Assembly: GCA_014382445.1 (NCBI GenBank)
Contig: JACNJS010000039.1
Coordinates: 90,083-154,082, forward strand
DNA from: Bacteroidota bacterium
Lineage (GTDB): Bacteria > Bacteroidota > Bacteroidia > Bacteroidales > F082
Reading direction: 5' to 3'
Length of the DNA stretch: 64,000 bases
The notes beneath the pieces are model-generated. The model was given only the letters and a program-made list of their open reading frames with translations, did no database searches and was not told the DNA's origin. Made by a program: the position numbers and the translations under genes. Below are positions 43,201-63,595 of this stretch, piece after piece (within the stretch, counting starts at the first letter, position 1; each line of letters opens with the position of its first letter).

Positions 43201-43271
43201 TGTAATTGGTAGTTAAGTATGCTTTATATGATCAAATTTCTAATAACTATATCTAATCGACCTGACTAATG

Positions 43272-43309
43272 TCCAATGACCAACAACCAATGACCAATAA
43301 CCAATGACT
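43272..43309. repeat. Short tandem repeat of CCAATGACCAA units
   Basis: Imperfect 13-14-base units (CCAATGACCAACAA, CCAATGACCAATAA, CCAATGACTAA) repeat almost three times in the gap between the FAD-subunit gene and the fused subunit gene. The function is unknown. Confidence 0.7.
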
Positions 43310-43402
43310 AAATCCCAGTGCAAGAGTTTAGAAATTGCGGTATAGGAATTCATTAGAAATTAGTGAAATTAGTTATTTGAAATTTATTGAAAGATAACAC
43401 GC

Positions 43403-47498: not shown

Positions 47499-48724
47499 AT
47501 TTTAGGACTGAAAAGAAGATGCCTTACTGCCCTGGATGTGGGCACCAAATGTGCACTAATAGTTTAGTAAAGGCACTGGATAAAATGGGTCTCGGTCCGA
47601 ATGATGTAATAATAGTTTCTGATATAGGTTGTTGTGGCCTGGTTGATCCCCTTATTAACAGCCATTCTATTCATGGCCTTCATGGACGGTCCACTGCCTT
47701 GGCAATGGGTATTGCTCTTGGATTGGATAATCCTGATAAAAAAGTTATCGCTATCCAGGGAGATGGTGGGGCAACTATTGGGTTGCAGCATCTCTTGGAA
47801 GCATCAAGGCAGAATATAAGTATGACATTGCTTGTACAAAACAACCAGGTTTATGGTATGACGGGAGGACAAATAAGTGGTACCTCAACCCGCCTGTTTA
47901 AAGCCATCAAGTTTCCCGAAGAAAGTGAAGTCCCGCCTTACAATCTGTGTGACATTGCTTATAGTGCCGGTGCTGCTTTCAGCGCCCGAGTAATTCCAAG
48001 AGGAGACTTTTCTGATAAATTAGTCGAAGCGATCAATGAACCCGGATTTTCATTTGTGGAAGCTCATATAATTTGTCCATCATATGGTTATAAAAAAGTG
48101 AATGAGCTTGAGTTGTTACCTTTTAGGGAAGAAACCCTGAAGACACAGCGGCTTCCTCATGTAATTCACAAAAAGGATACCCCTTCATTATTTGATTCTA
48201 TCCCCAAGGTGGAAACTTTTTTCGAATCCAATTTAAAATCACGTACAGAATTGATAATAGGAAGCTCAGCGGGAGCAGGTGCCCAGCTTGCTGCCGATCT
48301 TCTCACTTTTGCAGGAATTATGTGTGGACTGAATGCAACTAAGAAAGGAGAATATCCTATTACAGTGGGAACAGGTCATTCAGTAGCTGAGGTTATTCTT
48401 TCTGATGAAGCTATTAATTTTACAGGAATAGAATCTCCGGATGTTGTAATAATAACCTCTCAGGACGGACTTGATAAAGTAAAAGATCGAATTGATGATA
48501 GTACCCGGGTTATTCTTGATAGTAGTCTGGATTTAGATATTGGCAGAGAGATTCATCACGTAAGTTTTAATAAAAAAGCAGGAAAAAACGGAGCTGTACT
48601 TGCAGCCATAGCTTACTGGATAATACAAAGCGGTTTATTACCACTTGAAGCATTAAGAGAAGCTGCCAGAAATCATAAACATGCAAACAAACTAATTATA
48701 GCTATAGATAGCATTGCTGAATAG
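47489..48724 (+). CDS. 2-oxoacid:ferredoxin oxidoreductase, fused beta-gamma subunits
   Basis: This 411-residue protein carries the thiamine-diphosphate beta subunit (1-235) with cluster cysteines in MPYCPGCGHQMC and DIGCCG, and the TPP motif GDGGATIGLQHLLEAS (91-106). It is joined to a gamma domain (about 253-411, LIIGSSAGAGAQLAADLL). Beta and gamma are more often separate genes. No ferredoxin-like delta subunit and no NADH-linked flavoprotein (PadH) is present. Electrons therefore probably go directly to a soluble ferredoxin. AAGGAGG (47475-47481), within the end of the alpha gene, provides coupled initiation. Confidence 0.86.
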   Translation: MQVNFRTEKKMPYCPGCGHQMCTNSLVKALDKMGLGPNDVIIVSDIGCCGLVDPLINSHSIHGLHGRSTALAMGIALGLDNPDKKVIAIQGDGGATIGLQHLLEASRQNISMTLLVQNNQVYGMTGGQISGTSTRLFKAIKFPEESEVPPYNLCDIAYSAGAAFSARVIPRGDFSDKLVEAINEPGFSFVEAHIICPSYGYKKVNELELLPFREETLKTQRLPHVIHKKDTPSLFDSIPKVETFFESNLKSRTELIIGSSAGAGAQLAADLLTFAGIMCGLNATKKGEYPITVGTGHSVAEVILSDEAINFTGIESPDVVIITSQDGLDKVKDRIDDSTRVILDSSLDLDIGREIHHVSFNKKAGKNGAVLAAIAYWIIQSGLLPLEALREAARNHKHANKLIIAIDSIAE

Positions 48725-48815: not shown

Positions 48816-49589
48816 ATGGAAAATGAACACAAAAAACATGTAGGTATCTGCCTTGAAGGCAAATCCGCAATAGTTACAGGTGGTAGTCTTGGAATTGGTA
48901 CAGCTATTGCTCTGAAGCTTGCTGAATATGGGGCCAATGTTGCAATAAATTACAGAAAGCATAAAGATGAAGCGGAGGACGTTATTAAGAAAGTGAAAGA
49001 TATGGGCAGGAAAGGACTCGTTGTTCAAGCAGATATTTCGAATTTCCAGGATGCTGGTAAGATGGTAGAAACAGTAATTAGGGAATTTGGTGGTATTGAT
49101 ATTCTTGTAAATAATGCAGGAATTAATTGGGATGGTGTTATCTGGAAAATGACAGAAGAGCAATGGGATGGGGTAATAAACATTAACCTCAAAGGATACT
49201 TTAATTATATCCGTGCTGTATCCCCAATCTTTAGGGAACAGAAATCCGGAAAAATAGTCAATGTTACTTCCATAAATGGCATGAGAGGAAAATTTGGACA
49301 ATCAAATTATACTGCTTCAAAAGCTGGTATAATTGGACTTACCAAAACTGTAGCCCGCGAACTCGGTAAATATGGAGTTAATGTAAATGCAGTTGCACCT
49401 GGTTTGATTGAAACTGATATGATGAAAGAGGCAGATGAAAAAGTTCGTGAAATGGCGATATCAGAAATTGTTATGAACAGGATTGGTCAACCCGAAGAAG
49501 TGGCAGATGTAGTTACTTTCCTTTGCAGTGAACTTGCACGACATATTACGGGGGAAGTTATTAAGGTTGATGGAGGACAGTATATCTAA
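48816..49589 (+). CDS. Short-chain dehydrogenase/reductase, FabG-like
   Basis: This 257-residue NAD(P)-dependent SDR has a nucleotide-binding TGGSLGIGTAIALKL motif (21-35), NNAG (99-102) and a catalytic triad of Ser152, Tyr165 and Lys169. The C-terminal ITGEVIKVDGGQYI is typical of acetoacetyl-CoA or 3-ketoacyl reductases. Next to a thiolase in an aromatic island it fits a 3-hydroxyacyl-CoA dehydrogenase step, for example 3-hydroxypimeloyl-CoA to 3-oxopimeloyl-CoA. That role is inferred. Confidence 0.85.
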   Translation: MENEHKKHVGICLEGKSAIVTGGSLGIGTAIALKLAEYGANVAINYRKHKDEAEDVIKKVKDMGRKGLVVQADISNFQDAGKMVETVIREFGGIDILVNNAGINWDGVIWKMTEEQWDGVININLKGYFNYIRAVSPIFREQKSGKIVNVTSINGMRGKFGQSNYTASKAGIIGLTKTVARELGKYGVNVNAVAPGLIETDMMKEADEKVREMAISEIVMNRIGQPEEVADVVTFLCSELARHITGEVIKVDGGQYI

Positions 49590-49704: not shown

Positions 49705-50895
49705 ATGAATTTAAATGATATAGTAGCCATATCGGCATGCAGAACAGCAATGGGAAAATTTGGAGGAACACTTAAAGATATACCTGCTTATGACCTTGGT
49801 GCAACAGTTATCAGAGAGGCATTAAAACGGGCATCCATTACTGGTGATCAAGTAGATGATGTCATTCTTGGAAGCTGCCGTCAGGCAGGTAATGGACCTA
49901 ATCCTGCAAGAACTGCTTCTGTTAGAGGCGGGGTTTCTATGTCGACACCGGTAATTACTTTAAATATGGCCTGTCCTTCCGGAATGAGAGCTGTAGCATT
50001 GGCTTCCCAATCGATCCGACTTGGTGAAGCAGATATCGTGTTGGTTGGTGGATTCGACAGCATGAGTTCTATTCCTTATCTTTTGAAAGGAGCTCGCTGG
50101 GAAGGTTTTAAAATGGGAAATAAAGTAATTGAAGATGGATGGAGTGATAGTATAGATCCTTTGATAGGCCAGGGTATGGGAGATACCGCTGAAAATCTCT
50201 ACGACAAATATAAAATCTCCAGAGAAGGCCAGGATGAATTTGCTGTAAGCAGTCATTTGAAAGCTTCTGAAGCCCAAAAAAATGGGTGGTTTAATGAAGA
50301 AATAGTGCCTGTTGAAATACCGGCTACAAGGAGAACTCCTGCTATAATCTTTGACAAAGATGAGACAATAAGGCATGAACTCAACCGGGAAAAAATTTCT
50401 AAGATAAAACCCGCTTTTAGAAAAGATGGTACAGTTACTGCAGCAAACGCATGTGGATTAAGTGATGGGGCCACAGCTATTGTTTTAACTCATAGAAAAA
50501 TGGCTGATCAACTGGGCGTTAAGCCTTTATTCTCAATTGTTTCCTATGCCCAGGTTGCTGTCGACCCCTCAACCATGGGTGAAGGCCCTGCACTATCAAT
50601 ACCTGCTGCTTTAGAAAAGGCAGGAATGACCTTAGACCAAATGGACCTGATCGAAGTTAATGAAGCTTTTGCTATCCAGGTACTTGCAAATGAACAAGCG
50701 TTAAAATGGGATCCTAAAAAACTCAATGTGCATGGAGGAGCGATTGCATTAGGGCATCCAACAGGAATTAGTGGTGCTCGTATTTTAGTTACAGGCTATT
50801 ATGCATTAAAAGGTCTTAATAAAAAATATTGCATTGCTGCGATTTGTGGTGGAGGTGGTGTAAGTACTGCCATGATAATTAAAAGAGAGTCCTAA
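49705..50895 (+). CDS. Acetyl-CoA C-acyltransferase (thiolase)
   Basis: This 396-residue thiolase has nucleophile Cys90 in MACPSGMRA, His351 in GGAIALGHPTG and the second cysteine Cys381 in CGGGG. The block around Cys90 differs from the usual NKVCGSG of biosynthetic thiolases. It likely cleaves a 3-oxoacyl-CoA such as 3-oxopimeloyl-CoA to glutaryl-CoA and acetyl-CoA. That would feed the glutaryl-CoA dehydrogenase encoded earlier. Acetoacetyl-CoA cleavage is the other possibility. Confidence 0.88.
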   Translation: MNLNDIVAISACRTAMGKFGGTLKDIPAYDLGATVIREALKRASITGDQVDDVILGSCRQAGNGPNPARTASVRGGVSMSTPVITLNMACPSGMRAVALASQSIRLGEADIVLVGGFDSMSSIPYLLKGARWEGFKMGNKVIEDGWSDSIDPLIGQGMGDTAENLYDKYKISREGQDEFAVSSHLKASEAQKNGWFNEEIVPVEIPATRRTPAIIFDKDETIRHELNREKISKIKPAFRKDGTVTAANACGLSDGATAIVLTHRKMADQLGVKPLFSIVSYAQVAVDPSTMGEGPALSIPAALEKAGMTLDQMDLIEVNEAFAIQVLANEQALKWDPKKLNVHGGAIALGHPTGISGARILVTGYYALKGLNKKYCIAAICGGGGVSTAMIIKRES

Positions 50896-51049: not shown

Positions 51050-53083
51050 ATGAGGTACGCAGAGACAGGGTTTAATTTAGAAATTGATCTAACCCGTGGA
51101 AACATCGAGAGGGTTGCAACCGACCCAAGAGACACCGAGCTTTATTTGGGGGGGTTAGGTACAAACGCCAAGATATTATGGGAGAGAGTGCCACCTGAAG
51201 TTGAACCTTTTTCTCCCGACAACCTACTTATATTTGCCGCTGGCTTACTATGTGGTACACCTGCTATCGGTTGTAATAGAACTATTGTTTCTACTATTTC
51301 TCCTCAAACTATGTTAATGGCATTTTCAATGATGGGTGGATTTTGGGCACCTGAATTGAAATATGCCGGGTATGATAAAGTGATCTTTCGTGGCAAGTCT
51401 CCCGAACTGGTTTATTTGTGGATAAACAATGATAAAGTAGAAATACGTGACGCCTCTCATTTGAAGGGCAAAGGAGCTATTGAAACAGCAGAACTTATTC
51501 AGCAGGAGTTGAATGAACCGAAAGCCCAGGTGGCTGCTATCGGTCTTGCAGGTGAAAACAGGGTTTATTTTGCCTCAATTGAGCAGGGCAAGTCTAGTGC
51601 CAGTAGGGGTGGAATAGGTGCCGTTATGGGCGACAAAGGATTAAAGGCGATAGTTGTTCGCGGAACACAGGATTTAAATATTGCAGTACCGGGTGAATTC
51701 CTGGAGCTTTGTAACGAAGTGCTGGATTACATAAAAGAACGGGAAGAAAAACCAATTCCTGGAGTAATGCCTATTTTAGCAGGGCTGGGGTCACCGCAAG
51801 AGATGAAAATCCATGATGAAAAGTGGCACACCGAGAGTTTCATGTGGGGTAATTCACGTGAACGCAGAAAAGACTTTTGGACAGAGGAAGTTGCAAATGA
51901 GTGGACAAAGACCATGGAAGATGCTAGAAAGCGGCTCATAAGTTGTTATAACTGTCCGATGAAATGCGGGGCTACGATTTCCATACCCGGACTCCCAACA
52001 TACATGATGAAATGCTTCTCGAAACTGACATATACTATGGCTGCTTTCTCAAACCTGGATTTTGGTCTTAGAATCGCTCAGCGTGCAACGGAGTATGGAG
52101 TGGACGCATTTTCAGCTCCACAAGTTATGGCCTTTGCTCTTGAGCTCTACGAAAACGGCATATTGACAAACGATGATTTCCCAGAAATGCCATCCGACAA
52201 TGAAGGTAGATTTTTTTGGTTACTCGATCGAATTGTTAGAAGGGAAGGGATTGGAGATGTTCTGGCCAATGGAACCTATTGGGCTGCTAAAGAGATAGGT
52301 AAGGACGCTGAAGCATATGCTCACAATAACATTAAGAAACATGAGCAGATGCCTCTCAAACTGTCAATGCTGAATCCCATTTATTTTCTTATGTATTCTA
52401 CCGGCGAAAAGATAAGCATCACACAAATTGAAGGACAGTTCCCCCAGATGCCTTTTCCTACGAGAGAAGAGAGAGAAGAGTTTGTAAAGGATTGGTTTCA
52501 GGTACCTGATGAAAAGTTTAAGCAATATTTCCTCGACTGGGAATTACGCGGAGAAAATTCATTCCCCTATTACCCTACAGTAGGAATGTGTTGCGATATT
52601 GTTGATTGGCAAGAGAGGATGCACTACATCGATGATGCACTGGGTATGTGTTCCGGTCTATCATCATTCCCACTTAAACCACCGTATCATATACATAATT
52701 TCCCTAAATTTATATCTACAGGAGCAGGGATCGATATGGATGAAGCAAGACTAACACAAGCAGCCAAAAGATATCGGACCCTAGTTAGAGCAATTAATAT
52801 AGGAAGAGGAATGAGGAGAAAAGATGAAAAGCCTCCTGAGAACCATTGGAAGAAAAGATTTCCCGAACTCGAAGCTGAACTCCTAGATGAATATTACAAT
52901 CTAAAGGGATGGAACAAAGACGGTATTCCTACTAAAAAGTCCTTACATGAATTGGGGCTGGATTATGTTAGCGATGACTTTATTAAAAGGGGAATCTTGA
53001 CGGAAATTGAAAATGGTACATCTAATGACACTTCTGCAAAAAATGAGAAAAATAAAGTGGAGGACATGAATCATGAAGGGTGA
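51050..53083 (+). CDS. bamB: Class II benzoyl-CoA reductase, tungsten active-site subunit BamB
   Basis: This 677-residue AOR-family protein reduces benzoyl-CoA to cyclohexa-1,5-diene-1-carboxyl-CoA without ATP. It opens MRYAETGFNLEIDLTRG, the BamB start. Residues reported as essential in the Geobacter metallireducens BamB structure fall at identical numbers here: Glu251, His260 and the tungsten ligand Cys322 (MMKCF). The [4Fe-4S] cysteines are 299, 302, 306 and 534. A tail of about 25 polar residues extends past the family end (ISTGAG to GIL is conserved, then ENGTSNDTS). AAAGGAGG at 51038-51045 precedes the start, an unusually strong Shine-Dalgarno site for Bacteroidota. bamC overlaps its end by 11 bases. 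Confidence 0.95.
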   Translation: MRYAETGFNLEIDLTRGNIERVATDPRDTELYLGGLGTNAKILWERVPPEVEPFSPDNLLIFAAGLLCGTPAIGCNRTIVSTISPQTMLMAFSMMGGFWAPELKYAGYDKVIFRGKSPELVYLWINNDKVEIRDASHLKGKGAIETAELIQQELNEPKAQVAAIGLAGENRVYFASIEQGKSSASRGGIGAVMGDKGLKAIVVRGTQDLNIAVPGEFLELCNEVLDYIKEREEKPIPGVMPILAGLGSPQEMKIHDEKWHTESFMWGNSRERRKDFWTEEVANEWTKTMEDARKRLISCYNCPMKCGATISIPGLPTYMMKCFSKLTYTMAAFSNLDFGLRIAQRATEYGVDAFSAPQVMAFALELYENGILTNDDFPEMPSDNEGRFFWLLDRIVRREGIGDVLANGTYWAAKEIGKDAEAYAHNNIKKHEQMPLKLSMLNPIYFLMYSTGEKISITQIEGQFPQMPFPTREEREEFVKDWFQVPDEKFKQYFLDWELRGENSFPYYPTVGMCCDIVDWQERMHYIDDALGMCSGLSSFPLKPPYHIHNFPKFISTGAGIDMDEARLTQAAKRYRTLVRAINIGRGMRRKDEKPPENHWKKRFPELEAELLDEYYNLKGWNKDGIPTKKSLHELGLDYVSDDFIKRGILTEIENGTSNDTSAKNEKNKVEDMNHEG

Positions 53084-53624
53084 AAAGAAAAAGAAAATAA
53101 TTAAAACAATAAAAATTGATGTTGATAGTTGCAACGGTTGCAGAGCATGTGAAGTAATTTGCTCCGCCTTTCATGCATCACCAAAATATAGCAGCAATAA
53201 TCCTGCTAGGTCACGTATTCGTGTAATTCGTTATCCAATTGCCGATATATATGTTCCTGTTTATGCCGGTGAGTATGCTGTAGCCGAATGTGCCGGCAGA
53301 GACAAATATACGATTGATGGAAAGGAATACGATGAGTGCGCTTTTTGCCGTGCCTCGTGCCCCTCAAGAGATTTGTTCAAAGAACCTGATTCGAGTCTTC
53401 CTTTAAAATGCGACATGTGTGAAAGTGATCCTTCACAAAAAATGCCCTTATGTGTGCAGTGGTGCTTAAACGACGCCCTCATATTTGAAGAAAGGGAAGA
53501 AGAAGTAGAGGAAGAGGTGAAACAGGAAGATTTGGAGATTGGATTGGAATCGTTGGCAAACAAATATGGAATGGATAAAATAATGGATGTCGTTGCCCGA
53601 ATGTCCACATCAAAGAAAGGATAG
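53073..53624 (+). CDS. bamC: BamC, iron-sulfur electron transfer subunit
   Basis: This 183-residue ferredoxin-like subunit docks on BamB and relays electrons to its cluster. Cysteine groups are CNGCRACEVIC (20-30), CAFCRASCP and CDMC with CVQWC, giving about three [4Fe-4S] clusters. A charged coiled stretch (EEREEEVEEEVKQED) precedes the C-terminus. It overlaps bamB by 11 bases, with GGAGG at about 53059-53063 as initiation signal. It therefore appears tightly coupled to bamB, matching the stable BamBC unit known from Geobacter. Confidence 0.9.
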   Translation: MKGEKKKKIIKTIKIDVDSCNGCRACEVICSAFHASPKYSSNNPARSRIRVIRYPIADIYVPVYAGEYAVAECAGRDKYTIDGKEYDECAFCRASCPSRDLFKEPDSSLPLKCDMCESDPSQKMPLCVQWCLNDALIFEEREEEVEEEVKQEDLEIGLESLANKYGMDKIMDVVARMSTSKKG

Positions 53625-53662
53625 TATGGTATGACTCAAGCTCCAAGTCCCAAAATCCAAAA

Positions 53663-53797
53663 TTGAGTCCACTCCGAAAATTCAAATAGGACGTCATTGC
53701 GAGGGCGAAGTCCGAAGCAATCTACTGATTTTCACCACTAAAAGATTACTTCGCTTCGCTCGCAATGACGATCTGTCATTTTTAAGAGTGGACTCAA
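53663..53797. repeat. Nested palindromic element with CGTCATTGCGAG arms
   Basis: An outer 12-bp stem, TTGAGTCCACTC (53663-53674) with GAGTGGACTCAA (53786-53797), encloses two inner arms. These begin CGTCATTGCGAGGGCGAAGT (53692 on) and end TTCGCTCGCAATGACG (to 53770). CGTCATTGCGAG arms are a widely scattered bacterial palindrome class. Transcribed, it would form a long hairpin inside the bam operon. Confidence 0.85.
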
Positions 53798-53816
53798 AAT
53801 TAAAGAGAAATAAAGA

Positions 53817-53903
53817 ATGTCTAAAAAAAAAGATCTTTGTGAAAAATTGCTAAAATTCACAAGCTAAAAACTCATTCTTGCATCTATCATAAATAAACTT
53901 TAA
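53817..53903 (+). pseudogene. Relic of a four-helix-bundle (23S rRNA IVS-type) protein gene
   Basis: Translation gives MSKKKDLCEKLLKFTS, a stop, then KLILASIINKL and a stop. These are the first and last pieces of the TIGR02436-type four-helix-bundle protein, with the middle (about 85-90 residues) deleted. A second relic of the same gene lies between bamE and bamF, and its end (INKL, stop, then AAAATCACAA) matches this one. Confidence 0.7.
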
Positions 53904-54007
53904 AAATCACAAACTTGGAACTTGGAAGTTGGAATTTAGAACTTGGTATTTGGAATTTTAACCTTGGGTCTTATAACTTGGAACTTGAAATTTGGAATTT
54001 GAAATAA

Positions 54008-55162
54008 ATGGAGAATATAAACGACTACAAAGAGATTATCGACATCATAAAAGAAAAGGGTGGAGATTCTTTTAAATTATGCTACCAGTGTGGAAAATGC
54101 GATGTTGTTTGCCCCTGGAATAAAGTGAGAGATTTTAGTATGCGCAAATTGGTACGTGGAGCTACATTTGGTATGTCGGAAATTGAAGGCGAAGATATAT
54201 GGCTTTGTACTACCTGCGGTAAATGTACGCAAGAATGTCCAAGAGATGTAAAACAAGTAGAATCAGGGATTGCCTTACGCAGGATGGCAACTGATTATGG
54301 CATTTACACAGCTTCTGCCGATCCTATCCGTTCCATAAGATCAGCCTTGGCTGCTGATGGCAATCCTTTTTTTGAAGAACGAAGTAAGCGTGGAGATTGG
54401 GCACAAGGTCATTCTGTCAAAACTTTTACTAAAGATATGGAAATTTTATATTATCCAGGTTGTTATCTTAGTTTTGATCCAAGATTAAAAAAAGTAGCTG
54501 CTGCCACATCCAAGATTCTCAATAAAGCAGGAGTAAATTTCGGAATATTAGGCTCAAAGGAAAATTGCTGTGGAGAAAGTATACGCAAAGCAGGTGACGA
54601 AGAACTATACGTACAATTAGCTAAAGAAAACATAAAAACCTTTATTGATCATGGTGTAAAGAAAATTCTGGTTTCTTCACCTCATTGCTACAATACTTTT
54701 AAAAAGGAATATCCTGAATTTATGGTGCATTTTGAAGTGATTCATATCGCCCAATATTTATTTGAACTTATAGATGAAGGAAGACTTGAACTTAATAAGG
54801 AGTATAACAAAAAAGTAACATATCATGATCCATGTTACCTTGGCAGGCATAATGGCATATATGATGAACCCCGAAATGTATTACAGAAAATATCTGGAGT
54901 AGAACTGGCTGAAATGACTGATTCGAAAGAAGATAGCCTTTGTTGTGGTGGTGGTGGTGGCAGGATTTGGATGGACACTCCAAAAGGTGAGAGATTCTCC
55001 GACCTTAGAATTGATCAAGCTGTGGAAACCGGGGCTGAGGTGCTGGTTACTTCCTGCCCATATTGCATAGTTAATTTTGAAGATAGCATATTGTCAAGTA
55101 AGCATAATGAATCAATCGAAATAAAAGATATAACAGAAATTATTCAGGAAGCAATTTCCTAA
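54008..55162 (+). CDS. bamD: BamD, HdrB/HdrC-like subunit
   Basis: This 384-residue protein has an N-terminal ferredoxin part with two [4Fe-4S] motifs: Cys25, 28, 31 and 35, and Cys67, 70, 73 and 77. Two CCG domains follow, with NCCGES near 182 and CCGGGGGR near 315, plus SCPYC near the end. This is the fused HdrC-HdrB layout found in BamD. It is thought to belong to the electron-bifurcating module that supplies BamBC. It lacks a ribosome binding site and starts directly after a TTGGAATTTG repeat. Confidence 0.9.
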   Translation: MENINDYKEIIDIIKEKGGDSFKLCYQCGKCDVVCPWNKVRDFSMRKLVRGATFGMSEIEGEDIWLCTTCGKCTQECPRDVKQVESGIALRRMATDYGIYTASADPIRSIRSALAADGNPFFEERSKRGDWAQGHSVKTFTKDMEILYYPGCYLSFDPRLKKVAAATSKILNKAGVNFGILGSKENCCGESIRKAGDEELYVQLAKENIKTFIDHGVKKILVSSPHCYNTFKKEYPEFMVHFEVIHIAQYLFELIDEGRLELNKEYNKKVTYHDPCYLGRHNGIYDEPRNVLQKISGVELAEMTDSKEDSLCCGGGGGRIWMDTPKGERFSDLRIDQAVETGAEVLVTSCPYCIVNFEDSILSSKHNESIEIKDITEIIQEAIS

Positions 55163-55196
55163 AGTATTAAAACTTGATTAGGGCTCAAATGATGAA

Positions 55197-55296
55197 TAAA
55201 AGTATCAAATTCCAATCTCCAAAATCCAAGAAGGAATTACTTTGGGATTTGAAATTTGAAATTTGGATTTTGAAACTTGGGATTAAAATTTTTTTG
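55197..55296. repeat. CCAAATTCC-type palindrome between bamD and bamE
   Basis: The left arm CAAATTCCAATCTCCAAAAT (about 55207-55226) and the right arm (about 55252-55290, with AAATTTGGATTTTGAAACTT) pair imperfectly as a hairpin. The same units flank other bam genes. Confidence 0.65.
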
Positions 55297-55313
55297 AATT
55301 AGCATTAAGAAGA

Positions 55314-58300
55314 ATGAAAGAAGAATCAACTACAGATATTTCGGAAAATAAAAATCTTGGAGATGTTATTGTTGTTGGTGGAGGTATAAGTGGTATTCAG
55401 GCCGCTCTTGATCTTGCCACTACAGGTTATAAGGTTTATCTGGTTGATAAATCACCTACTATTGGTGGCAAAATGGCTCAGCTTGATAAAACCTTTCCCA
55501 CCAATGATTGCTCAATGTGCATTGAATCTCCTAAATTTATTGAATGCGACAGGCATCCTAATATAGAAATTATTACTTATACTGAAGTTGTAAATGTTGA
55601 AGGAGAAGCAGGAGACTTCACTGTAACACTGAATAAAAAACCAAGATACATTATAGAAGATAAATGTACTGGCTGTACTGTTTGCACTGAATATTGCCCT
55701 ATTCCAATTCCTGATCCGTTTAATCAAGAATTATCCACCAGTAAAGCTATTCATATATACTTCTCACAGGCAGTTCCTCTTGTTCCGTACATAGACGAAA
55801 GTTGCAGTTTTCTTGAAGATGGGAAATGTAATATATGTGTTGGTGTATGTAAAAACAATGCTATCGACCTGCATCAGAAACCTGAAAAGAGAGTTGTAAA
55901 AGTGGGAGCCATTGTATTATCGCCCGGCTACGATGTTTTTCATCCTGAGGTTAGAGGCGATTATGGTTATGGAAAATATAAAAACGTTGTTACCAGCCTC
56001 GATTTTGAACGTCTTCTTTGTGCAACAGGTCCACATGTTGGTGAAATTTTACGACCTTCTGATCATAAACATCCTAAAAAAATTGCATGGATTCACTGTG
56101 TTGGATCCCGACAATCAACCGAGGGAGGGCATAGCTACTGTTCTTCTGTTTGCTGTACATATATCCAGAAACAGGTAATCTTGTCAAAAGACCATAATGC
56201 GGATATGGAAGCTATGATTTTTCACAATGATATCAGGTCGTATGGCAAAGATTTTGAACGCTTTTATCAAAGAGCGGAAAATCTTCCAGGGGTTAAATTT
56301 ATTAGAAGTTATGTATCTATTGGAAAAGAAATTCCCGAATCAAAAAATGTAACAATCAGATATGCTACTACAGAGGAAGGTGTAAAAGAGGAAGAATTTG
56401 ATCTTGTAGTATTGGGTGTTGGATTGATTCCTCCTGCTAATGTTGAGAACTTAGCTGATATATTCGGTATTGAGCTTAATGCTCATCAGTTTTGTAATAC
56501 TGATGCCATATCACCAATAGTTACTTCAAGACCCGGGATCTTTATAAGCGGTGCGTTTGCCGGACCTCTTGATATTCCCGAATCGGTTGTAGGAGGTAGT
56601 GGAGCGAATGCGCTTGTAAGTGAGCTTTTGAATTCCAGAAGAGGCCAACTTTCAAAGGAGCGTATTTATCCTGAAGAAAGAGATGTAAGTGAAGAAGAGC
56701 TAAAGATAGGTGTTTTTGCCTGCCATTGTGGTGCCAATATCGGTCGTGTAGTTGATATTCCCGGATTGGTTGACTATTCTCGTACTCTGGATAATGTTGT
56801 TCACGCAGAAGAGGGTCTTTTTATATGTTCTACCGATGCTGCCCAACAAATAGCGAATACAATTAGGGATAAAGGGCTCAATCGTGTGGTTGTGGCGGCA
56901 TGTACGCCAAAAACCCATGAACCCCTGTTTCGCGATACGCTCAGGGAAGGTGGCCTTAATCAGTACTTTTTCGATATGGCGAATATAAGAGAGCACTGCT
57001 CTTGGGTACATTCCAAACAAAAGGAAGAAGCATCTCAGAAAGCAAAAGATATTGTTCGTATGTCAGTTGCCAGATCTGCCTATCTGGAACCATTGCTAGA
57101 ATTTGATCTGCCGGTTAACAAAGCCGCTCTTGTAGTTGGTGGAGGACTATCTGGAATGACCAGTGCCCTGAGTATTGCCAGCCAGGGATTTGAGGTTCAT
57201 TTGCTGGAAAAAGAAGCAAATCTTGGAGGAATGGCACTGAGAATTCCTACTACATTGGAAGGCTTGGATGTTCAAGAGTTTTTGCGAAATTTGATACGTA
57301 AGGTTTATCAGCATCCATTAATATATGTTTCTCATAGTGCCACAATAACAGATGTTTCAGGTTATGTTGGTAATTTTGTTACAACCGTAATTTCCGAAGG
57401 AAGAACCAAAAAAATTATGCACGGCGCAGCCATCCTGGCAACAGGAGCCGTTGAGTATAAACCTACCGAATACCTTTATGGGACAACTGATAGGGTAATG
57501 ACATCGATTGAGTTGGGAGAACAATTAGCTCTGCATGATAGTAAGCTTACTGATGCCAAAAGTTTGGTAATGATACAATGTGTAGGTTGCCGTCAGGAAG
57601 ACAGAAATTACTGCAGCCGTGTATGCTGCACTCATTCTATAAAAAATGCATTAAAGCTAAAAGAAATTAATCCAAAACTGGATATATATATACTTTTCAG
57701 AGATATAAGAACTTATGGATATAGTGAAGATTATTACAGGGAAGCTGCTGACAAGGATATAAAATTCATTCGGTATGAACCGGAAAACAAACCAGTGGTG
57801 GAAGCTATAAATGACGGAAATTCAGAAATTTTAAGTGTTTGTATATCGGATCCTATACTAGGAAAGGAGCTTGTTATTGAGGCTGATATTGTTTCGTTAG
57901 CTGCAGCAGTTATTTCATCAGAAGGTACCTATGAGGCATCACGATTATTCAAAGTTCCTGTGAATCAGGATGGCTTTTTCCAGGAAGCACATGTGAAATT
58001 ACGACCTGTTGATTTTTCTGCAGAAGGTGTTTATTTGTGTGGAACAGCACACTATCCCAAGCATATATCAGAAGCCATTAGCCAGGCATATGGTGCAGCC
58101 GGAAGAGCTGTTGCTCTTCTCTCGCAGGATACGGTCACAGCTTCAGGTTCAGTGTGCGAAGTAGAGGAGAATTTATGCGTATCATGCGGGGCTTGCATAT
58201 CGGTTTGCACATATGGTGCTATAACCTTTAATGAAACTAATAAAGCGGTTGTAAATTCAGTCCTTTGTAAGGGTGATGGTTTGTGCAATGTAGTGTGTCC

Positions 58301-58376
58301 AACATCTGCTATTTCACTAAAGCATTATACTGATGAAGAGTTACTGACCCAGATTGATGCTGTAATTGGTGTTTAA
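55314..58376 (+). CDS. bamE: BamE, HdrA-like flavoprotein
   Basis: This 1020-residue protein is a large HdrA relative. The first FAD domain starts at about 18 (VIVVGGGISGIQAALDLA) and contains HdrA-type cysteines in NDCSMCIESPKF. Inserted ferredoxin clusters lie at about 117-160 (CTGCTVCTEYCP). A second FAD domain begins near 601 (ALVVGGGLSGMTSALS), and a C-terminal 2x[4Fe-4S] ferredoxin lies at about 950-1005 (CVSCGACISVC). HdrA is the flavin-bifurcation site in heterodisulfide reductases. BamE is taken to have the same role, coupling ferredoxin, NADH and the ring reductase. The double-flavin length agrees with known BamE. Confidence 0.92.
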   Translation: MKEESTTDISENKNLGDVIVVGGGISGIQAALDLATTGYKVYLVDKSPTIGGKMAQLDKTFPTNDCSMCIESPKFIECDRHPNIEIITYTEVVNVEGEAGDFTVTLNKKPRYIIEDKCTGCTVCTEYCPIPIPDPFNQELSTSKAIHIYFSQAVPLVPYIDESCSFLEDGKCNICVGVCKNNAIDLHQKPEKRVVKVGAIVLSPGYDVFHPEVRGDYGYGKYKNVVTSLDFERLLCATGPHVGEILRPSDHKHPKKIAWIHCVGSRQSTEGGHSYCSSVCCTYIQKQVILSKDHNADMEAMIFHNDIRSYGKDFERFYQRAENLPGVKFIRSYVSIGKEIPESKNVTIRYATTEEGVKEEEFDLVVLGVGLIPPANVENLADIFGIELNAHQFCNTDAISPIVTSRPGIFISGAFAGPLDIPESVVGGSGANALVSELLNSRRGQLSKERIYPEERDVSEEELKIGVFACHCGANIGRVVDIPGLVDYSRTLDNVVHAEEGLFICSTDAAQQIANTIRDKGLNRVVVAACTPKTHEPLFRDTLREGGLNQYFFDMANIREHCSWVHSKQKEEASQKAKDIVRMSVARSAYLEPLLEFDLPVNKAALVVGGGLSGMTSALSIASQGFEVHLLEKEANLGGMALRIPTTLEGLDVQEFLRNLIRKVYQHPLIYVSHSATITDVSGYVGNFVTTVISEGRTKKIMHGAAILATGAVEYKPTEYLYGTTDRVMTSIELGEQLALHDSKLTDAKSLVMIQCVGCRQEDRNYCSRVCCTHSIKNALKLKEINPKLDIYILFRDIRTYGYSEDYYREAADKDIKFIRYEPENKPVVEAINDGNSEILSVCISDPILGKELVIEADIVSLAAAVISSEGTYEASRLFKVPVNQDGFFQEAHVKLRPVDFSAEGVYLCGTAHYPKHISEAISQAYGAAGRAVALLSQDTVTASGSVCEVEENLCVSCGACISVCTYGAITFNETNKAVVNSVLCKGDGLCNVVCPTSAISLKHYTDEELLTQIDAVIGV

Positions 58377-58429
58377 AACTCAAGCCCCAAGCCCTAAAAT
58401 CCAAAATCAAAGGAAGATAAGAATAGCTA

Positions 58430-59438
58430 GTGGGTAAGAAAAAAGATATTTGTGAAAGATTGCTAAAATTCGCTGTTGATGTGATTTTATATTTACGTTA
58501 GCGGTAATGCTTTGACTACAGTTCAGAAAACAAGTTCATAAAAATAAAATGAAAAAAGCAACATTGCTATTTATATTATCTGGACTAACTCTAATTGTTC
58601 TATCTCAAGAAAACTATGTTACAAAATCAACAGGTGGAATAGAAACTGGTTTTTTAGGAGTTTGGTTATATGATGAAATAAGACTTACAAATGTAGTAGC
58701 TTTAAGAGGTGAAATTGGACTGTCATCACGAATTTGGAATGACAAGGTTGTCACAGCAGTAAATTCTGGTTATTATGTTGCTCTCGTACTTACCCTTGAA
58801 CCAAGGTTTTATTATGATTTAAAGAGCAGATACTCTAAGTCTAAAAACATATCAGGGAACAGTGGAAATTTCGTTAGTATTAATATTAGATATCATCCTG
58901 ATTGGTTTATTATTTCAAATGATGACAACCCTAACAATGTGAATCAACTAGCATTAATTCCCACGTGGGGTATTAAACGTAATATTGGTAAACACCTCAC
59001 TTATGAAGTAGGTTGTGGGATAGGATATGAAATTTATTTTACAAAAAAAGTTGGATATCGTAAGAATATAGATGGAGTTGCTTTTAATTATCATTTACGA
59101 ATTGGATACAGATTTTGAACAAATTAATACCGTTGCACAACAACGGCGCATCGCAGTACCGCAATGTAAAAAACACAATACAAACAATGGACATAAAACA
59201 ACAACTTATTAAATCATCAACATCCGGTGGTGCAAATTATGAGGAATAACAGGGCTCTCGTACAAGCCATGATGCCAAAACCAAAATCGGAATCTCACTA
59301 AAAGAAATGCGTGAATCAAATTATTTTCTACAAATATTTAATCCATTGCAACTTGGTAATGTGAAAAGCAGCGAATATTTGCTTAAGGAATCCTCAGAAC
59401 TAAAATTGATTCATGCTTCCATAATAAATAAACTTTAA
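58430..59438 (+). pseudogene. Four-helix-bundle protein gene interrupted by an outer-membrane-protein gene
   Basis: The front part (58430-58486) reads MGKKKDICERLLKFAVDVI. The rest resumes at about 59202 as QLIKSSTSGGANYEE, a stop, then GISLKEMRESNYFLQIF and ELKLIHASIINKL. This is the S23/IVS-type four-helix-bundle family. Between them lies about 0.7 kb carrying the barrel gene at 58549-59118. Imperfect inverted ends flank the inserted part: GTTAGCGGTAATGC near 58496, and the complement of CATTGCGGTACTGCG near 59150. The gene is therefore dead and marks an insertion site. Confidence 0.72.
58549..59118 (+). CDS. Small outer-membrane beta-barrel protein inserted in the bam operon
   Basis: This 189-residue protein has a signal peptide (about 1-20, ILSGLTLIVLSQ). 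Alternating amphipathic strands follow (VVALRGEIGLSSRIW, YVALVLTLEPRFYYDL, LTYEVGCGIGYEIYF), with the C-terminal aromatic end LRIGYRF, as in outer-membrane barrels. No specific function is recognised. It separates bamE from bamF and is not part of known Bam systems. The inverted flanks suggest it arrived as a mobile cassette. Confidence 0.65.
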   Translation: MKKATLLFILSGLTLIVLSQENYVTKSTGGIETGFLGVWLYDEIRLTNVVALRGEIGLSSRIWNDKVVTAVNSGYYVALVLTLEPRFYYDLKSRYSKSKNISGNSGNFVSINIRYHPDWFIISNDDNPNNVNQLALIPTWGIKRNIGKHLTYEVGCGIGYEIYFTKKVGYRKNIDGVAFNYHLRIGYRF

Positions 59439-59476
59439 AAATCACAACCTTAAACCTTGGAATTTAAAATAAAACA
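59119..59476. other. 358-bp gap: structured insertion end and gene relic
   Basis: Positions 59131-59165 fold strongly: CCGTTG pairs with CAACGG, followed by GCGCATCGCAGTACCGCAAT. This resembles the folded recombination sites of integron cassettes, but a full core site is not clear. The rest is the 3' half of the broken four-helix-bundle gene, ending at 59438. Confidence 0.5.
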
Positions 59477-60244
59477 ATGAGCACAGTACATAATTTTCAA
59501 CCAAAAATAATTGGAATTATTTGTAACTGGTGTTGTTACGGTGGTGCCGACTTGTGTGGCGTTTCGCGCTTTCAATACCCACCTCATATCAGGCTTATCA
59601 GAGTGATGTGTTCGGCCAGGGTTGATATGTTACATATTCTTCGGGCATTAACAAATGGACAAGACGGAATTTTTATCGGAGGTTGCCATCTTTGTGATTG
59701 TCATTATGTAACAAATGGAAATTTTAACGCATATAGTATGGTTCAGGTCTTCCGAAAAATATTGAAACATATCGGTATTTATCCTGAACGTTTAAGAATA
59801 GAGTGGGTTTCAGCCGGTGAAGGAATCCGCTTTGCAAACTTTATGAATGAATATAGTTCTGAACTTATTAAGATGGGGCCAATAGGAAAAGCCGAAGGTA
59901 TGGACAAAGCAACTTTGGCATTTAAACTGGAAGCAGTAAAAAATATCATTCCTTATGTTAAGCTTGTAATTACTCAAAGGCTTCATGTATCTGAAAGAAC
60001 TGAAGATGCCTATCATAAGTTTTTTAGTAGTGACGAATTTGAAAGATTATTTAATAAATTAATTTTAGATAAATTGGTAAAAAGCCAAATCACATTGCTT
60101 TTACAGAAAAAAAACCTCTCAACTAGTGAAATTGCGACTACTTTAGGACTAAGCCCCTCAGAAGTAGCTAAACATATGAATGATTCATCAAAACAAGGAC
60201 TAGTTAGATTTGATGTAAAAAGCAAAAATTATGCAATTGCTTGA
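59477..60244 (+). CDS. bamF: BamF, MvhD-like subunit with a C-terminal winged helix
   Basis: This 255-residue protein has an N-terminal domain (1-140) of the MvhD family (methyl-viologen-reducing hydrogenase delta subunit), which links HdrA to an electron input. Cysteines are 16, 19, 20, 27, 45, 70, 73 and 75 (CNWCCYGGADLCG; GGCHLCDCHY). BamF of some Deltaproteobacteria is a selenoprotein. No in-frame TGA occurs here, so this is an all-cysteine form. The last 110 residues add a helical linker and a winged helix (LSTSEIATTLGLSPSEVAKH). This tail could be structural or regulatory. Confidence 0.88.
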   Translation: MSTVHNFQPKIIGIICNWCCYGGADLCGVSRFQYPPHIRLIRVMCSARVDMLHILRALTNGQDGIFIGGCHLCDCHYVTNGNFNAYSMVQVFRKILKHIGIYPERLRIEWVSAGEGIRFANFMNEYSSELIKMGPIGKAEGMDKATLAFKLEAVKNIIPYVKLVITQRLHVSERTEDAYHKFFSSDEFERLFNKLILDKLVKSQITLLLQKKNLSTSEIATTLGLSPSEVAKHMNDSSKQGLVRFDVKSKNYAIA

Positions 60245-60340
60245 AGTCACAAACCCTAACCCCAAAGCATCAATATCCAAGTTTTGATTACAAGTCCTCT
60301 TGGAATTTGTATTTTGGAATTTGGGACTTGGAATTTATAT
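60244..60340. repeat. TTGGAATTTGG-type repeat between bamF and bamG
   Basis: CTTGGAATTTGTATTTTGGA (from about 60299) is followed by ATTTGGGACTTGGAATTT. The left part has weak complementary CCAAG and ACCCCAAAG stretches. The element belongs to the same class as those before bamD and bamE. Confidence 0.6.
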
Positions 60341-60350
60341 ATAGAAGAAT

Positions 60351-60803
60351 ATGAATAACGAACGAATCGATCAAATAATAGATAAACATAATGGCGAAGC
60401 CAGCTCCCTTATTCAAGTATTACTTGAAATTCAGAGTGACTTTCATTGGCTACCTAAGGAGGCGTTAAAAAGGGTGAGTGAAAAATTACAAGTTCCTCTA
60501 AGCCGGACAATGCATATCGCCAGCTTTTATAAAGCCTTCAGTTTAGTGCCTAAAGGACGTCATGAGGTTCATATTTGTATGGGTACTGCCTGTCATGTTC
60601 GTGGTGCAAAGCGTATACTCGAAACAGTAGAAGATCTGACAGGGATAAAACCTGGCGAAACTGATCTGGAACAGAAGTTCAGCCTGGAAACTGTAAATTG
60701 TCTGGGATGTTGTGCTTTGGGACCGGTGATGGAAATAGAAGGAAAAATCTATGGTAAAATATCAACAAGTGTAACAGCAGACGTGTTAAAACGATATGAA
60801 TAA
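60351..60803 (+). CDS. bamG: BamG, NuoE-like [2Fe-2S] subunit
   Basis: This 150-residue thioredoxin-fold ferredoxin is of the NuoE type. The [2Fe-2S] ligands are Cys76, Cys81, Cys117 and Cys121 (CMGTAC; CLGCC). The N-terminal helical domain (LIQVLLEIQSDFHWLP) is standard for the family. It pairs with BamH to oxidise or reduce NAD in the bifurcating complex. It is slightly shorter than complex I NuoE. Confidence 0.92.
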   Translation: MNNERIDQIIDKHNGEASSLIQVLLEIQSDFHWLPKEALKRVSEKLQVPLSRTMHIASFYKAFSLVPKGRHEVHICMGTACHVRGAKRILETVEDLTGIKPGETDLEQKFSLETVNCLGCCALGPVMEIEGKIYGKISTSVTADVLKRYE

Positions 60804-60930
60804 GAATTGGATGAAGATGCCAAGTCTCAAGGCTCAAATTCAAAATTCAATGAAAAGCTTAAGAAAATAGTAGAAAATCACTTAGACAATAAGCACACTG
60901 ATATACACTAAAAAGTAAATAGAGAAAATT

Positions 60931-62850
60931 ATGATGCGGTTAAATTCGCCTGAAGAATTAGAGAAATTCAGACAAGAAATATTGTCCAAAAGAGACCCAA
61001 ATAAACCATGTATTTCAATATGTGCGGGCGCTGGTTGTATTGCCTCCGGTGCAAGTGAAGTCATAGCTGCATTTAAATCAGAGATTGAAAAACATACTTT
61101 GAAGGCTGATGTTGATATAAAAGGAACCGGATGTCCTGGATTTTGCGAGAGAGGACCTGTAGTGGTTATTTATCCCGAGGAGATATGTTATCTTCAGGTA
61201 ACACCAAACGATGTTCCAGAGATTGTATCTCAAACGATAAAGGAAAAGAAAGTTGTTGACCGTCTTCTTTATGTTGACGAATCTACTGGTGAAAAAGCAA
61301 TCCATGAATATGATATACCCTTTTATAAGAATCAGGAAAGAAACGTAATCTGCAATAATATAAAAATTGATTCTAAGAGTATCGACGACTATTTGGCGAT
61401 AGGTGGTTATTCTGCATTGAACAAAGTTCTTTCACGGATGACCGGTGAGGAAGTATTGGAGGAAGTCAAAAAATCAGGACTGAGAGGAAGAGGTGGTGCT
61501 GGTTTTCCTACTGGAAAAAAGTGGGAAGGATCACGCAATGACCCTGAAAAAATAAAATATGTGATCGTAAACGCCGACGAGGGCGACCCAGGGGCATTTA
61601 TGGACAGAGCACTCCTTGAAGGAAATCCGCATTCCATTCTTGAAGGATTGATTATCGGAGGCTATGCTATAGGCTCCCACGAGGGTTATATTTATGTTCG
61701 GCAAGAATACCCTCTGGCAGTAGTGAATATCAATCTCGCAATAAGGCAGGCTGAGGAGTATGGACTACTTGGGAAAAATATCCTTGGCTCCGGCTTTGAC
61801 TTCATTGTTAAGGTGCACCAGGGAGCCGGCGCTTTCGTCTGTGGTGAATCAACTGCCCTAATGACTGCACTGGAAGGCAGGGTAGGAGAGCCACGACCGA
61901 AGTATGTTCGTTCCAACATCAAGGGCCTTTGGAATAAACCGACCGTGTTGAATAATGTTGAAACATGGGCGAATATTCCAATTATAATAAATAAAGGTGC
62001 TGACTGGTTTACTCAAATTGGAACAGATGGAAGTAAGGGTACAAAGATATTTTCCCTGGTTGGTAAGATAACCAATACCGGCCTTGTGGAAATACCCATG
62101 GGCATAACCCTGAAAGATATTATATACAAGATTGGTGGTGGTATCCCCGGAGGCAAGAAGTTCAAAGCAGTACAGACCGGGGGACCGTCAGGAGGATGTA
62201 TCCCCGAGGATGGGTTAGATTTGGAAGTTGGCTTTGATGAACTCACCAAAGCCGGCTCAATGATGGGGTCTGGCGGGATGATAGTAATGGACGAAGATAC
62301 CTGTATGGTTGATGTTGCCAGGTACTTCATTAACTTCCTCACCGACGAATCCTGTGGCAAATGTCTCCCATGCCGTGAAGGCCTGAGGCAGATGGATAAG
62401 ATCCTTACCAATATCACGGAGGGAAAAGGAAAAGAGGGCGATATTGAGCTTCTAGAAGTACTATCAGAAACAGCCATTGAAGCCTCCCTTTGTGCCTTGG
62501 GTAAAAGTGCCCCGAACCCGCTTTTAAGCACATTACGCTATTTCAGAAATGAATATAAGGCACACATAGTTGAGAAGAAATGCACAGCTTTGTCGTGTAA
62601 GGAACTGATTTCGTATTATATTGATCCGGATAAGTGTACTGCCTGTATGATATGCCTTAAAAATTGCCCTGATGAAGCGATCGACGGTGGCAAGAAAAAG
62701 ATCCATATAATTGATCAGGACAAATGCACAAATTGCGGAACTTGCTTTGAAGTTTGCCCGCCTAAATTTGGTGCAGTGAAGAAGATTTCCGGAGAGCCGG
62801 TTCCTTCGCCTGTTCCTGAAGAAGAAAGAATGATAGTTAAAATAGGATAA
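60931..62850 (+). CDS. bamH: BamH, NuoF-like NADH-binding subunit
   Basis: This 639-residue protein has an N-terminal thioredoxin-like [2Fe-2S] domain (about 20-110, with CAGAGC and GCPGFC). The NuoF core carries the NADH/FMN motif GLRGRGGAGFPTG (183-195) and NADEGDPGAFMDR. An SLBB domain follows, then the cluster motif ESCGKCLPCREG. The C-terminus adds two [4Fe-4S] motifs (CTACMICLKNC; CTNCGTCFEVC). This is the layout of bifurcating hydrogenase and formate dehydrogenase beta subunits. In Bam it forms the NADH-linked site. Confidence 0.94.
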   Translation: MMRLNSPEELEKFRQEILSKRDPNKPCISICAGAGCIASGASEVIAAFKSEIEKHTLKADVDIKGTGCPGFCERGPVVVIYPEEICYLQVTPNDVPEIVSQTIKEKKVVDRLLYVDESTGEKAIHEYDIPFYKNQERNVICNNIKIDSKSIDDYLAIGGYSALNKVLSRMTGEEVLEEVKKSGLRGRGGAGFPTGKKWEGSRNDPEKIKYVIVNADEGDPGAFMDRALLEGNPHSILEGLIIGGYAIGSHEGYIYVRQEYPLAVVNINLAIRQAEEYGLLGKNILGSGFDFIVKVHQGAGAFVCGESTALMTALEGRVGEPRPKYVRSNIKGLWNKPTVLNNVETWANIPIIINKGADWFTQIGTDGSKGTKIFSLVGKITNTGLVEIPMGITLKDIIYKIGGGIPGGKKFKAVQTGGPSGGCIPEDGLDLEVGFDELTKAGSMMGSGGMIVMDEDTCMVDVARYFINFLTDESCGKCLPCREGLRQMDKILTNITEGKGKEGDIELLEVLSETAIEASLCALGKSAPNPLLSTLRYFRNEYKAHIVEKKCTALSCKELISYYIDPDKCTACMICLKNCPDEAIDGGKKKIHIIDQDKCTNCGTCFEVCPPKFGAVKKISGEPVPSPVPEEERMIVKIG

Positions 62851-62980
62851 TGTTAAATTACAAATTCAAAATCTCAAATTTAAAGTCCCAAATTCCAAGT
62901 GGAGGTGGCTTTCATCACATAGTGCTTGATAGTTGTGTTTTTGGAGTTGAGACTTTTAAATTAGAAAAAATGCAAAAACA

Positions 62981-63595
62981 ATGAATGAGATACTAATGCA
63001 GATTGATGGTAGAGAAGTTAAAGCAAAGGAAGGGATGACTGTCCTGGAGGCTGCCCAAAGTATAGGGATATCCATACCAACACTCTGTTACCACGAAAAA
63101 TTGGTACCATTTGGCGGTTGCCGACTTTGCCTTGTAGAAGTAGAATCGGGTGGCTGGACAAAACTCGTTGTTTCTTGTGTATATGCTAGTGAAGAAAATT
63201 TGGTAGTAAGAACCAGAACAGAGAAGATAGACAGAATTCGCAGTACCCTCCTCGAACTACAGCTGGCTCATGCCCCGAATTCACCACAATTGCAGGATTT
63301 GGCCAAAGAATATGGTGCTGATAAAGATCGTTTTGAAAAAGAAGCCTCATTTTGCATTAATTGCGGACTGTGCGTTAGATACTGTGCAGAGGTTAAGAAT
63401 TTGAATGCTATTGGATTTGTTGACAGGGGAATAAATAAAGAGATAAGTTTTATCCCTGAGATTGCCGCTAAAGAATGTTGGAGTTGTAAAGAATGTTTTC
63501 CATTATGCCCTACTTCTTATATTCAGGCTGCTTATGTACTAACCGAAGCTCTTTCATTTCCAAGAGCGACTACTGAAACATTGTTAGACGAATAA
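62981..63595 (+). CDS. bamI: BamI, NuoG-like iron-sulfur subunit
   Basis: This 204-residue protein corresponds to the N-terminal part of NuoG. It has a [2Fe-2S] ferredoxin domain with Cys36, 47, 50 and 66. The His/Cys site for the next NuoG cluster is not conserved; only HAPNSPQ remains. Two [4Fe-4S] motifs follow, CINCGLCVRYC and CWSCKECFPLC. It closes the bam gene set. After the stop there is no further gene in the window. Confidence 0.9.
   Translation: MNEILMQIDGREVKAKEGMTVLEAAQSIGISIPTLCYHEKLVPFGGCRLCLVEVESGGWTKLVVSCVYASEENLVVRTRTEKIDRIRSTLLELQLAHAPNSPQLQDLAKEYGADKDRFEKEASFCINCGLCVRYCAEVKNLNAIGFVDRGINKEISFIPEIAAKECWSCKECFPLCPTSYIQAAYVLTEALSFPRATTETLLDE

Follow-up and report, generated by a model that had tools for sequence, protein, structure and literature searches.

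A complete and intact bamBCDEFGHI locus, predicted to specify a working class II benzoyl-CoA reductase, lies on a Bacteroidota contig, within a stretch of 64,000 nucleotides referred to here as the window (positions 90083-154082 of contig C75 of the genome designated G000, assembly GCA_014382445.1), the contig ending 405 bases past bamI. The predicted enzyme would feed a ring-opening pathway for which a second contig of the genome carries bamA, bamQ and a likely bamR, in a group of bacteria in which class I and class II reductases would have replaced each other and in which BamB and BamH would have been exchanged with other lineages; taken as a whole, this reading is very likely, the ability to dearomatise being predicted from the genes only.

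As the first-pass annotation of the window had read them, the eight genes are intact open reading frames (ORFs) in the canonical order B-C-D-E-F-G-H-I, all on the + strand, between positions 51050 and 63595:

51050..53083, +, bamB, catalytic subunit of the AOR/WOR family (4z3w_A, 1267.6 bits)
53073..53624, +, bamC, polyferredoxin subunit (4z3w_E, 272.1 bits)
54008..55162, +, bamD, HdrBC-like with two CCG domains (PF02754 in two stretches, Fer4_8)
55314..58376, +, bamE, HdrA-like flavoprotein (HdrA2, 924.1 bits, under its cut-off of 1100; BamE tree)
58549..59118, +, extra ORF of 189 amino acids separating bamE from bamF (nothing matched in Pfam or NCBIfam; G+C content at third codon positions, GC3, of 0.17)
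59477..60244, +, bamF, FlpD/MvhD-like with a C-terminal winged-helix stretch (PF02662, PF01022)
60351..60803, +, bamG, NuoE-like 2Fe-2S subunit of thioredoxin fold (PF01257)
60931..62850, +, bamH, NuoF-like subunit (PF01512, PF10589)
62981..63595, +, bamI, NuoG-N-like subunit (PF13510, Fer4_7)

BamB aligns to Geobacter BamB (chain A of 4Z3W) without a gap over residues 1-651, so that the numbering is identical in the two proteins, and it keeps at the Geobacter numbers Glu251, His255, His260 and Cys322 as well as the cysteines 299, 302, 306 and 534, which we take to be the cluster ligands, Glu257 being likewise kept as read from the 4z3w_A alignment. Glu251, His260, Cys322 and the four cysteines had been singled out by the first-pass annotation and are borne out by this alignment. 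The best ordinary aldehyde oxidoreductase (AOR) in the PDB scores 205.2 bits against BamB, the score of 4z3w_A being six times as high, and a grouping of BamB with AOR enzymes of other substrates, which had been named as an outcome that would speak against the annotation, is therefore not what is found. A 2025 review assigns Zn binding, the proton relay and tungsten ligation to Glu251, His255, Glu257, His260 and Cys322 (PMC12096430). With the BamB residues, the BamC partner and the Hdr-, FlpD- and Nuo-like modules of BamD-I, the sequence features by which the class II reductase itself is recognised are present in one operon, and the match of the locus to this enzyme is, as judged from sequence, no chance resemblance. 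The 189-residue ORF, which the first-pass annotation does not mention and which by eye possibly begins with a signal peptide, is missing from every other bam locus in the comparison apart from L006, whose sequence is identical. In another locus, L013 (6853-9771) of a groundwater Bacteroidetes bin, a gene for a 972-residue restriction-modification methylase of the Eco57I kind separates bamB from bamC.

The placement of the contig in the Bacteroidota, which the first-pass annotation had proposed, and its continuity can be assessed from two genes to the left of the operon:

11967..13832, +, parE, used to place the contig taxonomically (ParE identities and tree)
26438..27142, +, PCMT gene, uninterrupted at position 26845 (PF01135 positions 4-208 of 210)

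Genome G000 amounts to 3.47 Mb, with 96.0% completeness and 0.79% contamination. When its ParE was compared with 20 genomes, two of which gave no match, the identity reached 87-89% with four genomes of the genus and 65-74% with seven others (six titled Bacteroidetes/Bacteroidales and one "uncultured bacterium"); it fell to 50% with an Acidobacteria bin and to 33-37% with those Deltaproteobacteria, Desulfarculus, Desulfosarcina, Spirochaetes and Chloroflexi genomes that gave a match. In a ParE tree with 18 rows, the 12 from Bacteroidota, window included, form one clade (support 100/100), in agreement with the proposed placement; the one long branch flagged is a Chloroflexi row outside this clade.

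A second public record, JADHTG010000030.1 (37240 bases, bin BS150m-G14), matches window positions 26845-64000 with a single mismatch in total (it falls in 41050-63080, while 26845-41049 and 62885-64000 are free of any), so that a false join in this region would have to be common to both records. A chimeric assembly between about 29.5 and 51 kb, which the first-pass annotation had regarded as capable of undoing its conclusion, is accordingly unlikely, the second record being identical there but for at most one base. This record begins inside the PCMT gene, at 26845, and the window continues to its left with an intact PCMT domain. That BS150m-G14 is the same species as G000 is rejected: its ParE is 65% identical to that of the window, the DNA of its bamA region is 69-71% identical, and the bin contains a bam copy of its own (L018). 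Because of this second copy the misplaced 37-kb stretch is more likely to be the one in BS150m-G14, and misbinning of the contig there is the simplest and most likely reading; a very recent transfer is a possible alternative, as is an assembly error common to both records if both were made from the same reads. The sampled genes to the left of 26845 have a GC3 of 0.24-0.32 and those to the right of 0.25-0.39, apart from the extra ORF mentioned above, with 0.36 for the straddling PCMT gene. The PCMT gene and the 793-residue gene at 27139 have no homologue in twelve stretches from same-genus genomes, so that synteny does not mark them as native.

The genes required downstream of the reductase are found on contig C38 of G000, where bamA (579.7 bits, cut-off 464.45), bamQ (438 bits, cut-off 338.65) and a bamR-like hydratase gene stand side by side (12539-15538), accompanied by thiolase, ApbA-like, activase, HGD-D and Nramp-like genes and by a synthetase-like gene, the last named from its sequence. 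The set by which a class II pathway is recognised in a genome, namely bamR, bamQ and bamA, is present in G000, bamR scoring below its cut-off. A MoaA gene, which reaches 287.1 bits together with a neighbouring piece (cut-off 284.05), also counts in favour of the proposed function. Similar terminator-like hairpins with a common 12-base arm occur behind bamI (window 63940-63990) and at the end of C38 before the acyl-CoA synthetase gene; a joining of C38 to C75 was considered and no link is claimed, this motif being all that the ends of the two contigs have in common. One HGD-D protein and one activase (L108 16587-18660, on C38) adjoin bamR-bamA-bamQ in most Bacteroidota loci fetched and are present also in Bacteroidota loci having Bam or Bcr. 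The solved structures nearest to the HGD-D protein are 2-hydroxyisocaproyl-CoA dehydratase and, after it, 3-methylbenzoyl-CoA reductase, and it is possibly a further acyl-CoA dehydratase or reductase.

The ring-opening module makes it possible to compare the window with its relatives, of which 79 were searched: 7 from its genus, 40 more from its family and another 32 from its order. At an E value of 1e-100, bamA is present in eight of the 80 genomes including G000; the other seven, all of the same family, lack BamB and have a BcrD match of 1e-69 or better, that of G038 being an incomplete gene located on a different contig. In G008 the class I subunits BcrB (657.7 bits) and BcrC (440.1 bits) exceed their equivalog cut-offs, BcrD (311.8 vs 312.85) and BcrA (429.9 vs 578) falling short of theirs. 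If these seven family members are taken together with seven bam-bearing Bacteroidota genomes and G000, the resulting 15 bamA genomes comprise seven with a strong BcrD only, six with BamB only (best BcrD match 1e-17 to 1e-20), two with both (G475 and G477) and none with neither; the ratio 7:6:2 is no frequency, since the choice of the eight bam-bearing genomes depended on BamB in seven cases and, for G000, on the window. In G000 no strong BcrD was found, the sole match (1.5e-19) being the C38 activase, in a search that was made for BcrD among the four Bcr models.

The reductase operon is on the bamA contig in 12 of the 15 genomes, being of class I in G008, G015, G021, G028, G034, G041 and G475, of class II in G478, G479, G480 and G481, and of both classes in G477; in G000, G038 and G474 the two were not seen, or not demonstrated, on one contig. 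The order in G008 and G015 is BcrC-B-A-D, synthetase, ApbA, bamQ, bamA, bamR, HGD-D, activase, with an Nramp-like gene interposed in G015, and in G480 and G478 BamB-I occupies the position of BcrC-B-A-D in the same orientation. In G479 (L043) and G481 (L050) Bam is divergent and adjoins the same synthetase, and in G021, G034 and G041 class I adjoins a module that diverges further (HGD-D about 53%, activase 32-34%). A single contig of G477 (C44) bears the ring-opening module, then BcrD-A-B-C and then a divergent BamB-I. Since gene order and presence show Bcr, Bam or both beside a related module, we infer that one class has taken the place of the other next to a resident module, G477 representing an intermediate stage; gains and losses that occurred independently and in a different order are a possible alternative.

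The subunit phylogenies were calculated for BamB-BamH under LG+G4, a model of the non-mixture type, with nine Bacteroidota-type rows (window, L013, L015, L018, L023, L041, L043, L046 and L050), L006 being left out as a duplicate of the window. Rows were dropped for length from the sets of BamC (2 of 79), BamD (5 of 70), BamE (6 of 62), BamF (2 of 52) and BamH (16 of 48) and none from those of BamB (80 rows) and BamG (35). The nine Bacteroidota-type rows are one clade in BamC (Shimodaira-Hasegawa-like approximate likelihood ratio test, SH-aLRT, 98), BamD (100/100), BamE (100/100) and BamF (SH-aLRT 100), and eight of them are one clade in BamG (SH-aLRT 93, below the level at which the tool awards its star). 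In BamB the Bacteroidota-type rows are split over three starred clades, one of which includes the row of a Desulfobacterales bin (L047), and a single clade is rejected by the approximately unbiased (AU) test (p 0.017); in BamH the six Bacteroidota-type rows need three changes and a single clade is again rejected (p 0.0007). The nearest BamB to that of the window, with 88-89% identity, belongs to L047, which in the BamE tree lies outside the Bacteroidota-type clade. The complex thus looks, from these trees, like a mosaic in which BamC-G are of one Bacteroidota-type clade and BamB and BamH are not. The gene transfer suggested by the first-pass annotation is in this way supported for BamB and BamH, whereas one event moving the entire locus is too simple an account, because BamC-G belong to the Bacteroidota-type clade. 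A recombination point inside BamB was also looked for, the trees of the BamB halves proving weak. One of the nine rows, L015, is from a bin titled Deltaproteobacteria (PowLak16_MAG11) that holds Bacteroidota-type BamC-G; since the ParE of this bin groups with Desulfosarcina, L015 is either misbinned or transferred, and misbinning is likely because bam is also found in PowLak16_MAG5, a Bacteroidetes bin from the same series of isolates.

A broader proposal, to which we would give even chances, is that a Bacteroidota chassis consisting of acyl-CoA synthetase, ApbA-like protein, bamQ, bamA, bamR, HGD-D and activase may accept Bcr or Bam interchangeably, with G477:C44 caught in transition, and that the catalytic BamB and the NADH-side BamH may pass from phylum to phylum while BamC-G stay resident.

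BamB is patchily distributed. None of the 79 relatives has it, the best-scoring match being 36% identical and the highest identity, 44%, extending over a partial length, and among 395 genomes taken across the phylum, G000 included, G000 is the only one with a match at 1e-100 or better. On the other hand, among the best 80 of 371 public loci, seven are titled Bacteroidetes/Bacteroidales and come from six genomes, and an eighth, L041, is from a genome whose ParE is of Bacteroidota; the trait is therefore patchy and not unique. The first-pass annotation knew of no Bacteroidota carrier, and this stands as far as the literature search is concerned but not for the deposited sequences, six more genomes so titled holding bam genes.

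Several observations weigh against the interpretation given at the outset. The bam operon and the ring-opening module are on separate contigs, whose ends share only the 12-base motif, and the bamR-like hydratase scores 219.8-220.4 bits, under the curated cut-off of 292.5, dienoyl-CoA hydratase being nonetheless its best model. BamB, bamA (1e-100) and a strong BcrD are absent from all seven further species of the genus that were sampled, the named Bacteroidota records come, judging by their titles, from metagenome bins, and the presence of the same 37-kb stretch in a bin of another Bacteroidota lineage means that binning is unclean somewhere. As to the mosaic, the trees leave out BamI, the discordance of BamB (p 0.017) is moderate and concerns a group fixed after the other trees had been viewed, and the N-terminal half of BamB forces no split, the C-terminal half forcing two changes.

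Some of these facts would be expected if the bam stretch came from another organism and had been wrongly joined or binned into G000, as would the absence of BamB from the 79 relatives and the end of the other record at 26845, where G000 continues. Yet this join falls inside a full-length PCMT domain, GC3 is alike on either side (exceptions being the PCMT gene and the extra ORF), BamC-G group with other Bacteroidota, and the bin sharing the 37 kb has its own bam copy and is the more likely home of a misplaced one; a foreign origin of this kind is improbable. Still less probable, indeed very much so, is the arrival of the operon by one recent transfer from a sulfate reducer: the nearest BamB is that of a Desulfobacterales bin and none of the seven same-genus species has BamB, but BamC, BamD, BamE and BamF (support 98-100) and BamG (93) stay in the Bacteroidota-type clade, from which that same bin is excluded in the BamE tree.

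A somewhat stronger, though still unlikely, alternative is that the complex acts on another aryl-CoA, for instance a substituted benzoyl-CoA, rather than on benzoyl-CoA itself. The neighbouring genes do resemble hydroxybenzoyl-CoA reductase and other enzymes of aryl compounds; the proton-relay, Zn-binding and tungsten-ligand residues for benzoyl-CoA reduction, as given in the review (PMC12096430), are nevertheless all kept.

Under the main reading, in which benzoyl-CoA is the substrate, the complex would likely operate as follows. By analogy with their families, BamGHI and the HdrA-like BamE, together with BamD and BamF, would split electrons from reduced ferredoxin or reduced nicotinamide adenine dinucleotide, BamC would hand low-potential electrons to the tungsten cofactor in BamB, and BamB would convert benzoyl-CoA to the 1,5-dienoyl-CoA independently of adenosine triphosphate (ATP). 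BamB and BamH may have been exchanged with lineages such as sulfate reducers, BamC-G having remained in the Bacteroidota.

The bam operon forms the right-hand portion of a larger catabolic region that begins near 31977 and whose genes would likely supply the aromatic acyl-CoA and complete its beta-oxidation:

31977..33155, +, acyl-CoA dehydrogenase, likely of glutaryl-CoA dehydrogenase type (NF045552, 271 bits, under the cut-off of 470)
33303..35641, +, second AOR-family enzyme and MobA-like protein
35891..40059, +, three-gene molybdopterin / Fe-S / NrfD membrane oxidoreductase
40145..42289, +, nucleoside diphosphate-forming acyl-CoA synthetase, likely activating an aromatic acid
42307..46216, +, xanthine-oxidase-family flavin adenine dinucleotide (FAD) subunit and fused 2Fe-2S/molybdenum subunit, 4-hydroxybenzoyl-CoA reductase-like
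46368..48724, +, two-subunit 2-oxoacid:acceptor oxidoreductase, possibly for an aryl-2-oxoacid (POR_N, TPP_enzyme_C, POR)
48816..49589, +, short-chain dehydrogenase/reductase, likely a 3-hydroxypimelyl-CoA dehydrogenase (PF13561)
49705..50895, +, thiolase by sequence similarity, likely the 3-oxopimelyl-CoA thiolase of the lower pathway

Relatives of several of these genes accompany bamA in the Bacteroidota genomes G474 and G477, namely those of the xanthine-oxidase-family pair and of the acyl-CoA dehydrogenase in both, of the short-chain dehydrogenase (75% and 65%, respectively) and, in G474, of the thiolase (83% identity); further relatives of the short-chain dehydrogenase are near bam in a Chloroflexi bin and an Acidobacteria bin (68% and 71%). 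The acyl-CoA dehydrogenase is 77.5-80% identical to same-genus genes, and its tree does not place it inside the clade of the genus. The pair at 42307-46216 reaches 942.3 bits with TIGR03194, the alpha-subunit equivalog (cut-off 994.55), and has 1rm6_A as its best solved relative. The beta subunit of 4-hydroxybenzoyl-CoA reductase has a loop with an extra 4Fe-4S cluster; no counterpart of this loop is seen in the FAD subunit, which is 27 residues shorter than 1rm6_B and aligns to it over residues 3-121 only. From its gene order, the complex at 35891-40059 may have a PadBCD-like role, but this name is not adopted, the NCBIfam matches including no PadB model and the names of the 120 homologues listed being general or absent and hence uninformative.

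The enzyme itself is already known. The system of Geobacter metallireducens (BamBC in PDB 4Z3W and further entries), which presumably consists of eight subunits in the same order, shares with the window the BamB numbering, the Cys322 ligand, the Zn and proton-relay residues and the polyferredoxin BamC, and differs in its host phylum, in lacking the extra ORF between bamE and bamF, and in the window's Bacteroidota-type BamC-G clade and ring-opening module. Class I BcrCBAD is predicted to catalyse the same reaction and stands beside a related ring-opening module in the family members, but is an unrelated enzyme, ATP-driven in the known cases. Dearomatisation genes also occur in the Vicingaceae, which we take to be a family of the Bacteroidota. 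There the reductase, reported from a bin with nitrate reductase genes, is, unlike that of the window, of class I (Bzd-type) (PMC8470020). Class II genes outside the Desulfobacterota have a precedent in bamBCDEFGHI-like genes of Chloroflexota bins, described as lying, in that other phylum, in two gene clusters (PMC11362221), and a Bacteroidota bin is said to express enzymes of benzoyl-CoA degradation, the class of the reductase being unnamed in the accessible text (PMC8099898). Neither class II Bam in the Bacteroidota nor an interchange of the two classes there was found in print, in a search reaching neither supplements nor most subscription papers. In some Bacteroidota papers "bamB" denotes the beta-barrel assembly protein.

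The presence of the whole complex and of ring-opening genes in the Bacteroidota adds a large phylum to the candidates for this type of dearomatisation. The relatives offer a natural comparison, in which related ring-opening modules are paired with an enzyme predicted to be ATP-driven or ATP-independent and, in two genomes, with both, so that the circumstances favouring each reductase class become testable by comparative genomics and cultivation. Furthermore, because the BamB of the window groups with one from sulfate reducers, surveys using bamB as a marker may assign some Bacteroidota carriers to the latter. Elsewhere in the window, at 17964-20315, three ORFs, two of them having no Pfam match, are found between genes that closely adjoin each other in the same-genus genomes G001, G003 and G005, and are possibly a small insertion in the backbone.

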